From Barnesiella sp. (lineage in GTDB: Bacteria; Bacteroidota; Bacteroidia; Bacteroidales; Muribaculaceae): 11,452 nt of DNA. Of the stretch, positions 9,048-11,287 are shown piece after piece (position 1 is the stretch's first letter; every line of letters starts with the position of its first letter). The translations under genes were made by a program, and so were the position numbers. The DNA is taken from the NCBI GenBank assembly GCA_014801065.1, contig JAAVEX010000017.1, positions 16,937-28,388 on the forward strand, written 5' to 3'. Under the pieces are notes generated by a model that worked only from the letters and a program-made list of their open reading frames with translations, made no database searches and was not told where the DNA came from.

Positions 9048-9227
9048 CTTAGAAACTGTTTAAATTTATGCGAAAAATATTTATATGCTCTGATTTATAT
9101 GATCTTTCAGGCGATTTTTGCCAAGTTTTATCGGTCACGATGCCCGCATCGCTCCCTCTTCAACTTGCAAAACTCATCCTGAAATATCCTAAAAATCATT
9201 CGCACATAAATCTAAACAGTTTCTTAG
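9048..9227 (-). repeat. Fold-back repeat element copy 1 (180 bp, MITE-like)
   Basis: On the minus strand the element opens with CTAAGAAACTGTTTA and closes with TAAACAGTTTCTAAG, a near-perfect terminal inverted repeat extending inward to TTTATG-type sequence (about 25 bp). Both halves are partly complementary further in, and the centre is CGATGC-GG-GCATCG at 9138-9151. By eye, the first 90 bp match copy 2 (11098-11287) without gaps at about 70 of 90 positions. TAA flanks the GAAACTG...CAGTTTC core on both sides, which suggests a 3-bp target duplication. The element has no convincing coding capacity. It fills the space between the DUF3127 and fucosidase genes and supplies the DUF3127 stop codon. 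Confidence 0.82.
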
Positions 9228-9592
9228 AATGGAATATCGTCTTCGGGAGCGCCCGGGGCACTTGTGAAGGGATCTACTGCAGGAGGTGCGGGAGCGCCGC
9301 CATAGGCGGGCGTTGGAGCGGTGGCGCCTTCTTTTTCCGCTTTCCAACCGCGGATGCCGGTGTACCAACGGCCATTATATTCGCGGCTTTCGATATCGAA
9401 GCTGAGGGTTACAATTTCGCCTACATTGAGGGGATATTGGTCGGCGCGTTCGCCGAAGAAATCGAAGTGAACTTTTTTGGGATATGTCTCCATTGTTTCG
9501 AGAACATATTCGCGTTTTTTCCAATTGTTGCCGCTTTTCGAAACGCCTGACATTTCGGGGAGGGCAAGAATGATTTTACCTTTTATTTCCAT
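9224..9592 (-). CDS. DUF3127 protein with SSB-like C-terminal tip
   Basis: This is a 122-residue protein of the Bacteroidota DUF3127 family. Residues 1-86 form a compact beta-rich domain (MEIKGKIILALPE, then REYVLETMETYPKKVHFDFF and SREYNGRWYTGIRGWK) that resembles an OB-fold. Residues 88-116 are a flexible Ala/Pro/Gly linker, and the chain ends in EDDIPF. Domain, linker and acidic tip follow the plan of single-stranded DNA-binding proteins, where the DDxPF tip recruits repair and replication proteins. A DNA-metabolism role is inferred from this; the family has no firm function that I know of. A good promoter lies upstream (9627-9657). The stop codon TAA lies inside the terminal repeat of the adjacent fold-back element, yet the canonical tip is intact. 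Confidence 0.85.
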   Translation of the reverse strand: MEIKGKIILALPEMSGVSKSGNNWKKREYVLETMETYPKKVHFDFFGERADQYPLNVGEIVTLSFDIESREYNGRWYTGIRGWKAEKEGATAPTPAYGGAPAPPAVDPFTSAPGAPEDDIPF

Positions 9593-9626
9593 CTGTTAAT
9601 GTGATATTAGTGACTGAACTGAACTA

Positions 9627-9657
9627 CAAAAATAGGCAAAGCTCACGAATCTGACAA
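9627..9657 (-). promoter_or_regulatory. Promoter of the DUF3127 gene (TTG-N20-TATTTTTG)
   Basis: On the minus strand TTG (9657-9655), a 20-nt spacer and TATTTTTG (9634-9627) match the Bacteroidota -33/-7 consensus in sequence and spacing. A start near 9620 gives a leader of about 28 nt to the ATG at 9592. It lies just downstream of the pgk terminator, so the gene has its own transcription unit. Confidence 0.65.
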
Positions 9658-9674
9658 GTTTTTCGCGTGATAAA

Positions 9675-9712
9675 AAGGCGGTGTGTCAATAACTGATGTG
9701 ACACACCGCCTT
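9675..9712 (-). terminator. Intrinsic terminator of pgk
   Basis: AAGGCGGTGTGTCA (9675-9688) and its exact complement (9699-9712) make a 14-bp stem with a 10-nt loop. On the minus strand the stem is followed by a U-rich tail (CCTTTTTATC). It begins 36 nt after the pgk stop. The plus-strand side has no U-run, so it looks directional. Confidence 0.85.
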
Positions 9713-9748
9713 GTATGACATGATTGTAAAAACTGTCGATGTTTCGGA

Positions 9749-10996
9749 TTAGCCTTTAATTGCAGCTACGCCGGGGAGCACCTTTCCTTCGATGGCTTCA
9801 AGCAGCGCACCGCCACCGGTAGAAACATAGGAAACTTCGTCGGCCAGACCGAATTTGTTGATGCAGGCTACAGAGTCGCCACCACCAACGAGCGAGAATG
9901 CGCCATTTTCGGTAGCTTTCACGATGGCATCAGCAATTGCGCGTGAACCGGCAGTGAATGTGTCGAATTCAAACACACCGGCGGGACCGTTCCAAAGGAT
10001 AGTTTTGGCGGGGAGGATAGCTTCAGTGAAGATTTTGCGGGTTTCAGGACCGGCATCCATGCCTTCCCAACCGGCAGGAATATCCATAACGGAGCAGATC
10101 TGAGTGTTGCAGTCGTTGCTGAAAGCATCGCCGGCCACACAGTCGACACCGAGCACGAGGTTGACACCTTTTTCTTTAGCTTTCTTCATGATGTCGAGAG
10201 CCACATCAAGCTTGTCGAGCTCGCAGAGCGATTCGCCGATGTTTCCACCCATAGCTTTAGCGAATGTGTAGGTCATACCGCCGCAGAGAATGAGGTTGTC
10301 CACCTTATCCATAAGGTTTTCGATGATACCGATCTTGGTGGATACTTTCGAACCACCCATGATGGCGGTGAAGGGGCGTTTGATGTCGCTGAGAATATTG
10401 TCAACGGCTTTAACCTCTTTTTCCATGAGGTAGCCGAGCATTTTGTCTTCCTTGTCGAAATAGTCGGCAATCACGGCAGTAGAAGCGTGTTTACGGTGAG
10501 CTGTTCCGAAAGCATCGTTTACGTAAACGTCGGCGTAGCTTGCGAGAGTTTTTGCAAATTCTTTCTGACGCTCTTTCATTTCTTTCTTGGCAGCGTCGTA
10601 GGCGGGATCTTCTTTGTCGATTCCCACAGGCTTTCCTTCTTCTTCAGGATAGAAGCGGAGGTTTTCAAGCAGGAGCACTTCGCCGGGCTTAAGTGCAGCG
10701 GCAGCTTCGGCAGCATTAGCGCAGTCAGGAGCAAATTTCACATCAGTGCCAAGAGCCTTAGCTACGGCATCTTTGATCTGCGAAAGTGAGAATTTGGGAT
10801 TGACTTTGCCTTTGGGTTTGCCCATGTGGCTCATGATGATAAGGCTACCACCATCGTTAAGAATTTTTTTGAGCGTGGGGAGCGCACCACGGATGCGGGT
10901 GTCGTCAGTGATGTTACCGTTTTCATCCAGGGGCACGTTGAAGTCAACGCGAACAATTGCCTTTTTGCCGGCAAATTTGTAATCGTCAATATTCAT
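9749..10996 (-). CDS. pgk: Phosphoglycerate kinase
   Basis: Pgk interconverts 1,3-bisphosphoglycerate plus ADP and 3-phosphoglycerate plus ATP in cytoplasmic glycolysis. The 415-residue protein shows the full set of family motifs. In the N-lobe these are VRVDFNVPLD (15-24), IIMSHMGKPKGK (53-64), LENLRFYPEEEGK (110-122) and YVNDAFGTAHRKH (158-170). In the nucleotide-binding lobe they are GGSKVSTKIGIIENL (214-228), LCGGMTYTF (237-245), LWNGPAGVFE (334-343) and SLVGGGDSVA (368-377). Residues about 119-147 contain a Lys/Glu-rich insertion, probably normal for the Bacteroidota form. The gene is monocistronic, with its own -7 box 37 nt upstream and a terminator 36 nt downstream. Nothing in the reading frame suggests damage. 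Confidence 0.97.
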   Translation of the reverse strand: MNIDDYKFAGKKAIVRVDFNVPLDENGNITDDTRIRGALPTLKKILNDGGSLIIMSHMGKPKGKVNPKFSLSQIKDAVAKALGTDVKFAPDCANAAEAAAALKPGEVLLLENLRFYPEEEGKPVGIDKEDPAYDAAKKEMKERQKEFAKTLASYADVYVNDAFGTAHRKHASTAVIADYFDKEDKMLGYLMEKEVKAVDNILSDIKRPFTAIMGGSKVSTKIGIIENLMDKVDNLILCGGMTYTFAKAMGGNIGESLCELDKLDVALDIMKKAKEKGVNLVLGVDCVAGDAFSNDCNTQICSVMDIPAGWEGMDAGPETRKIFTEAILPAKTILWNGPAGVFEFDTFTAGSRAIADAIVKATENGAFSLVGGGDSVACINKFGLADEVSYVSTGGGALLEAIEGKVLPGVAAIKG

Positions 10997-11032
10997 TTTA
11001 TATATTATTTGGTTTGAGTTTTTACTTTGTTA

Positions 11033-11040
11033 CAAAAGTA
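11033..11040 (-). promoter_or_regulatory. -7 promoter element of pgk
   Basis: The minus strand reads TACTTTTG, an exact TAnnTTTG match, 37 nt before the pgk ATG. It is half of a partly symmetric stretch (TACTTT-gttac-AAAAGTA, 11023-11040). A -33 TTTG at normal spacing is not obvious; a T-run and a TTG lie closer than usual. The rest of 10997-11097 holds only A/T-rich sequence. Confidence 0.55.
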
Positions 11041-11097
11041 TGAAAAAAAAACCAAGCGAATGGGAATGAAGGCAAAAAAAATGTTAATGACGATTTA

Positions 11098-11287
11098 CTA
11101 AGAAACTGTTTGAATTCATGTGCTAATGATTTTAAGAAGGTTTTTGTATGATTTTTGTGTGATGAATAAGGAGTGATGCGGGCATCACAACTGATGAATC
11201 ACGCAAAAAGTACAAAAAGGATTCCTGAAATCATGGCATATTTGACTGATAATAAAACTTTCGACATAAGTTTAAACAGTTTCTTAA
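11098..11287 (+). repeat. Fold-back repeat element copy 2 (190 bp, MITE-like)
   Basis: The element opens with CTAAGAAACTGTTTGAATTC and closes with TTTAAACAGTTTCTTAA, an inverted repeat of about 25 bp. The rest also folds back: read inward from each end, both arms contain TTTTTGTA, then TTTTTG(T or C)GTGAT, then GTGATGC. The tip is GTGATGC-GG-GCATCAC (11173-11188). It is parallel to the reverse complement of copy 1, with the central hairpin at the same distance (79-90) from the left end; the right half is 10 bp longer. TAA flanks both sides if the right end is shifted by one base. It sits 58 nt upstream of the pgk -7 box. Confidence 0.82.

Follow-up and report, generated by a model that had tools for sequence, protein, structure and literature searches.

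What two fold-back sequences in the genome of Barnesiella sp. are, and what their folded centres do, is the question raised by a window of 11,452 nucleotides (the whole stretch of DNA analysed here; assembly GCA_014801065.1, contig JAAVEX010000017.1). An initial annotation had described two inverted copies of what looked like a dispersed family and suggested that they may be non-coding miniature inverted-repeat transposable elements (MITEs) moved by a transposase in trans. Our results support the assignment of the window copies as MITEs. The elements are mobile DNA of a lineage of IS5-type insertion sequences (ISs), and their centre, a hairpin that we call the core, forms part of the transposon end. 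The fold of the core is kept by strong compensatory change while nearly all other sequence of the elements changes, which suggests that it matters for the movement or the control of the elements.

MITEs in the window and in the home genome

The two copies lie in opposite sense, are 172 and 182 bp long, carry terminal inverted repeats (TIRs) of at least 19 bp and contain no transposase, in keeping with MITEs. A repeat search of the window paired positions 9116-9227 with 11098-11209 (112 nt, 74% complementary), and detected internal arms of 40 nt (80%) in copy 1 and of 23 nt (87%) in copy 2. Both copies are bounded by the consensus GAAACTGTTT(A/G)AATT(T/C)ATG with TNA targets outside it; copy 1 is bordered by GAAACTGTTTAAATTTATG and copy 2 by a near variant of it, and the base preceding GAAACTG belongs to the duplicated TNA target and not to the terminal repeat. 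The two flanks are identical for copy 1 and differ for copy 2. As had been proposed from the partly complementary arms, each copy folds end to end above chance: the whole-element fold of copy 1 reached -68.2 kcal/mol on the minus strand (z -9.0) and -52.3 on the plus strand (z -9.3), that of copy 2 reached -63.9 on the plus strand (z -8.6) and -46.7 on the minus strand (z -6.5), and none of 200 shuffles was equally stable for either copy on either strand.

The family is indeed dispersed. When the 1.9-Mb home assembly was searched with copy 1, 86 match rows were obtained, corresponding to 42 distinct places by hand count, and copies within the genome were often more than 90% alike. This query misses copy 2, whose 182-bp type was found at four places among the home-genome loci examined. 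The end motif, with at most one mismatch, matched 51 + 41 times in the home genome, compared with 1 + 0 times for a reversed control. Among 29 home-genome elements with both ends (a 40-bp relic and rows with alternative ends excluded), 27 had TNA on both sides and 21 had the same TNA on both (hand count). TNA flanks were not forced in this count or in the tandem count for genome G144 given below, while they were a precondition in the searches for spacing, for partner ISs and for the ends of distant elements. The 3-bp TNA target, a feature of the IS1031-like group of the IS5 family, was thus seen in the two unforced counts. The home assembly is 76% complete and six of its contigs (C31, C48, C66, C87, C92 and C95) end inside copies of the element; the repeat thus breaks the assembly, and the copy numbers are lower bounds.

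Empty sites, the other expectation for a MITE, could be addressed behind the stop codon of the DUF3127 gene that adjoins copy 1. All seven relatives in which this gene end was located lack the element there, but these relatives are other species and 21 of the 29 loci compared (the home locus and the seven relatives being the others) were unresolved, so the test is a loose one. No element reached the gathering threshold of any Rfam family, the one overlap with copy 1 being at chance level (WT1-AS_7, 15.2 bits, E 0.39), and plasmid and phage collections gave no match.

Several arrangements of the elements were seen beside these counts. At L018 (about 1500-1750) a GAAACTG-type MITE is nested in a GAGAGTG-type element, and at L071 (about 1380-1560) one element is nested within the core region of another. 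Elements at L003, L005, L159 and L164 often stand end to end with one common TNA, even across TIR types, as though insertion favoured the place where two ends meet. At L033, L036 and L061 (home-genome contigs C12, C22 and C96) another dispersed repeat occurs, with GATCGGCCGAGCACGGCCGATGGACC and a stretch of GACGGCTGATG; in two cases this repeat stands directly behind a GAAACTGTTTAAATTTATG end.

A covarying hairpin in the centre of the elements

The core is a 72-nt hairpin on one strand of the element centre, the minus strand at copy 1 and the plus strand at copy 2. In an alignment of 18 diverse centres (from 20 thinned cores, two being dropped with their left half replaced by another insertion), the 5' side GAAGARGGAG faces the 3' side YGACYGATRAA, giving three tandem G.A pairs around covarying Watson-Crick pairs. 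The mismatches form two tandem G.A/A.G pairs, with the third present in most cores, and the apical hairpin is free in sequence while its pairing is kept. Among 65 thinned cores, 46 show the strict motif, a double tandem G.A separated by two pairs, and in five the separation is one pair. The form with one Watson-Crick pair was seen outside the home family at L223-L233 (genomes G469, G470 and G378).

The fold is conserved by covariation. In the unfitted alignment, the covariation score was 0.375, against 0.210 after shuffling and at most 0.133 with slid partners. For 103 matches of a covariance model, aligned, unlike the former, by fitting to the structure, the values were 0.682, 0.224 and at most 0.143, respectively. 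In this larger alignment 94.6% of the cells pair, 469 of 1882 with changes on both sides, and such both-side changes affect 17 of the 20 core pairs; the pattern is the same in 51 sequences thinned to below 88% identity. The stems contain 61 G.T and 26 A.C oppositions, which favours folding of the core-bearing strand, although the strand choice of the model itself may add slightly to the G.T excess.

A search of related genomes with a covariance model had been suggested at the outset, and it showed how far the core reaches. By blast, 15 of 61 sister genomes matched, often in the element centre only. Model R1 found the core in 91 of 198 genomes of the home family (Muribaculaceae) and in 19 of its 30 genera, the matches per genome being lower bounds. 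Across the order, R1 matched 5 of 295 genomes and the broader model R2, built from the 103 matches, 17 of 392 genomes in eight families, so the core is uncommon outside the home family. A strict-pattern scan returned at least 109 named stretches; among the 80 listed, all bore Bacteroidales names and 27 those of Muribaculaceae or its genera (hand count). Paramuribaculum intestinale DSM 100749 has a core as well, scoring 84.9 bits (L306). A regular expression located the core in only 2 of 21 distant loci, and the covariance model was used there instead; around the core of G574, no convincing element ends were detected.

The core keeps its distance from one end

Core-bearing elements end in widely different terminal repeats, while the distance between the core and its own terminus hardly varies. 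The search for ends covered the range of 5-75 nt from the core and required TNA. From 125 matches, seven too near the end of the locus and 31 without a recognised TIR were set aside, and the 87 with a TIR represent 75 distinct elements. In 68 of these 75 the core starts 42-46 nt inward of the outer edge of its own terminal repeat, and several of the seven outliers look like an inner part of the TIR mistaken for its end. The distance to the opposite end, in the same elements, ranges from 25 to 467 nt. A conserved interior at so constant a spacing, between ends that change, would not be expected of a transposase that works on double-stranded DNA.

The orientation of the elements relative to neighbouring genes, assessed at 94 placements with crude gene calls and with some places counted through two loci, showed no clear bias (44 same and 34 opposite for the upstream gene, 45 and 36 for the downstream gene), which agrees better with a role in transposition than with one in gene regulation.

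IS5-type partners and elements with two cores

Terminal repeats matching those of individual MITE subfamilies enclose IS5-type transposase genes. Searches with PF13586 yielded few such genes, and those with NF033580 and tblastn more. The partner transposases at L159 and L160 scored 178.6 and 171.2 bits with NF033580 (cut-off 110) and matched PF13340 and PF01609 as well. The home genome, at its 76% completeness, has no NF033580 match. Its sole PF01609 match, a 533-aa transposase at L061 that we take to be IS1182-like, was rejected as a partner, its ends being different.

The initial annotation had placed a hairpin in the centre of each copy. The hairpin is there, but it is more than the centre of a MITE: it is common to elements with differing ends and stands at both ends of some IS5-type elements. 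In L141 (G144, 1180 bp) and in L354 and L364 (both G007), a core lies just inside each terminal repeat, facing inward, and the shortened IS L356 also has both cores. Neighbouring cores no more than 1.4 kb apart in three genomes faced inward in 37 cases, against 2, 3 and 2 for the other arrangements (among 150 of 175 matches). In many two-core elements (L138, L141, L354, L365 and L387), a GGTAAYTTT-like stretch follows the hairpin just inside the module and resembles part of the Bacteroidales -7 promoter box.

Two-core elements of 583, 515 and 347 bp connect the 1180-bp IS with the one-core elements of about 160-200 bp, and the two-core elements and one-core MITEs are a series of reductions. 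Such a series, and the close likeness of copies within one genome, would also be expected of ordinary MITEs whose centres resemble each other through common descent or gene conversion and have no function. We consider this very improbable, given the both-side changes in most core pairs, their persistence in the thinned set and the spacing kept while the terminal repeats diverge.

Whole units may move together. Of the seven compact ISs in G144, four stand directly next to a core-bearing MITE whose ends are the same. Two of these four tandems have a matching outer TNA pair and a different inner TNA, so IS and MITE were most simply moved as one unit.

A possible role of the core in transposition

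The fixed distance to the end that is cut, the presence of the core at both ends of ISs and its retention in gene-less forms favour a role in transposition over one in gene regulation. We tentatively propose, as a reading that could well be correct, that the copies are MITEs of an IS5-type lineage whose folded end module acts in cis in transposition. A DDE transposase supplied in trans would recognise the terminal repeats and insert the MITEs at TNA. The end module is the long hairpin that lies just inside one terminus, some 44 nt inward of the outer end; near-full-length relatives carry it at each end, facing inward with a transposase gene between, and the MITEs would be reduced forms of these. 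During transposition the module may work as a folded single strand and could attract the transposase, or some host factor, to the terminus, which would matter most for gene-less copies reliant on transposase made elsewhere. Because it is the cut end to which the spacing refers, we lean slightly towards a module acting as DNA rather than RNA.

Some observations weigh against this proposal. The core is missing from compact ISs of 868-896 bp whose ends are of the same kind, so it is not universally required. The frames of the two-core ISs are split (234 + 68 aa in L141, 207 aa in L364, an in-frame stop in L354), through decay or programmed frameshifting, and no intact two-core IS was seen. The expectation of an IS with the same ends, stated in the initial annotation, held for other subfamilies, while searches with NF033580 and tblastn found none with the exact ends of the window copies (GAAACTGTTTAAATTTATG), the home assembly being 76% complete. 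Furthermore, 14 of the 65 thinned cores depart from both forms of the G.A motif, the antisense strand of the elements also folds well, and we know of no transposase of double-stranded DNA that needs a single-stranded fold.

The chief rival is control at the RNA level, because read-in transcripts would contain the fold. The module could then shield the element from read-in transcription, cause such transcripts to be processed or regulate the expression of the transposase. The sense-strand folding with G.U-type wobbles fits this, and with inward cores at both ends, transcripts reading in from either direction would carry the fold. We regard it as possible but doubtful: a spacing of a few nucleotides' precision to a DNA end has no obvious use in RNA control, the MITEs keep the fold though they have no gene to protect, and there is no clear orientation preference to neighbouring genes.

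Capture on the lagging strand was also considered and rejected. The signs of 36 one-core elements of G144 (among 88 listed matches) gave no two-arc pattern, the statistic of 18 being reached in 43% of 500 shuffles.

Coordinates and neighbouring genes

Copy 1 is flanked by a DUF3127 gene (9224-9592, minus strand; PF11325) and an alpha-L-fucosidase gene (PF01120); it stands directly behind the DUF3127 stop codon and with its fold in the strand of that gene. Some 100 bp separate copy 2 from the phosphoglycerate kinase gene, upstream of which it stands (9749-10996, minus strand). This intergenic placement, the position of copy 1 and the strong folding that transcripts would show could be taken to mean that the host uses the elements for processing mRNA or forming its 3' ends, a role reported for Correia and ERIC repeats. 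Such a use appears unlikely, since the 94 placements show no clear orientation bias, and the ends and TNA flanks are those of a mobile element. Elsewhere in the window (983-4236), consecutive open frames resemble, by eye, LpxD, an LpxC/FabZ fusion and LpxA.

Table 1 Positions of the two MITEs and their parts in the window
Feature	Position	Strand	Remarks
MITE copy 1, 172 bp	9052..9223	- (strand with G.A-rich fold)	Ends, fold, genome copies
Copy 1 TIR, distal to core	9052..9070	+	
Copy 1 TIR, core-proximal	9205..9223	-	43 nt from core start
Copy 1 left target duplication	9049..9051	.	TTA
Copy 1 right target duplication	9224..9226	.	TTA; on the minus strand TAA, the DUF3127 stop codon
Copy 1 structured core	9109..9180	-	Models R1, R2 (G000:C17:26045-26116)
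MITE copy 2, 182 bp	11102..11283	+ (strand with fold)	Second subfamily
Copy 2 TIR, core-proximal	11102..11120	+	
Copy 2 TIR, distal	11265..11283	-	
Copy 2 left flank	11099..11101	.	TAA, TNA type, unlike right flank
Copy 2 right flank	11284..11286	.	TTA, TNA type
Copy 2 structured core	11145..11216	+	43 nt from outer end; L034:1375-1446

Comparison with known systems

The usual view of MITEs is of short-lived deletion products with an interior free to decay. Here, across several families within a single order of gut bacteria, the interior is conserved while the ends change. It can now be tested how bacterial elements without genes compete for transposase, and whether the shape of a nucleic acid takes part in DDE transposition or its control; the covariance model also makes it possible to annotate a class of repeats that frequently marks contig ends in these genomes. 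More broadly, though we think it doubtful, Bacteroidales may harbour a class of DDE (IS5-type) transposons in which the ends are set by inverted repeats together with a structured single-stranded module at a fixed distance, recognised by its shape (the double tandem G.A); this module would let gene-less derivatives compete for transposase and lineages persist while their terminal repeats drift with the IS partners. The open-licence literature, available mostly as abstracts, yielded no description of these elements, nor of a covarying fixed-spacing module common to IS5-type elements and MITEs.

IS5-related MITEs as such are already known in Bacteroidales: BrickBuilt and PgRS/464 of Porphyromonas gingivalis are reported as IS5-family MITEs that share TIRs with ISPg1, ISPg4 and ISPg9 (PMC4596501). 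The window copies resemble them as non-coding Bacteroidales elements with ends matching IS5-family ISs, and the P. gingivalis TIRs also begin with GAG (PMC4596501). As far as that account goes, they differ in that BrickBuilt and PgRS hold tandem direct repeats and have irregular target duplications, and in their ends, which are unlike those in the window when compared by the published TIR letters alone (PMC4596501).

With the IS5 family itself (NF033580) the partner ISs share scores above the family cut-off and inverted repeats at TNA. To our knowledge, a structured end module is not a described feature of this family. ERIC and Correia elements insert at TA, whereas the target here is TNA; by description, they are further set apart from the present elements by the fixed-distance module with double tandem G.A and by the inward pairs at both ends of ISs. 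What they share with the present elements is a fold-back structure, a dispersed intergenic distribution and transcripts that form long hairpins; outside Bacteroidales, fold-back MITEs that act in mRNA are known (PMC10969869).

Finally, the elements were compared with IS200/IS605, from which they differ by their inverted repeats, their TNA flanks, the DDE transposase of their partners and the lack of a replication-strand pattern. IS200/IS605 elements use a single-strand HuH transposase and have neither inverted repeats nor target duplication. Membership in this group was rejected, as TIRs and TNA are present and the partner transposase is of the DDE type. What the two have in common is a fold of one strand near each transposon end (PMC6006769).
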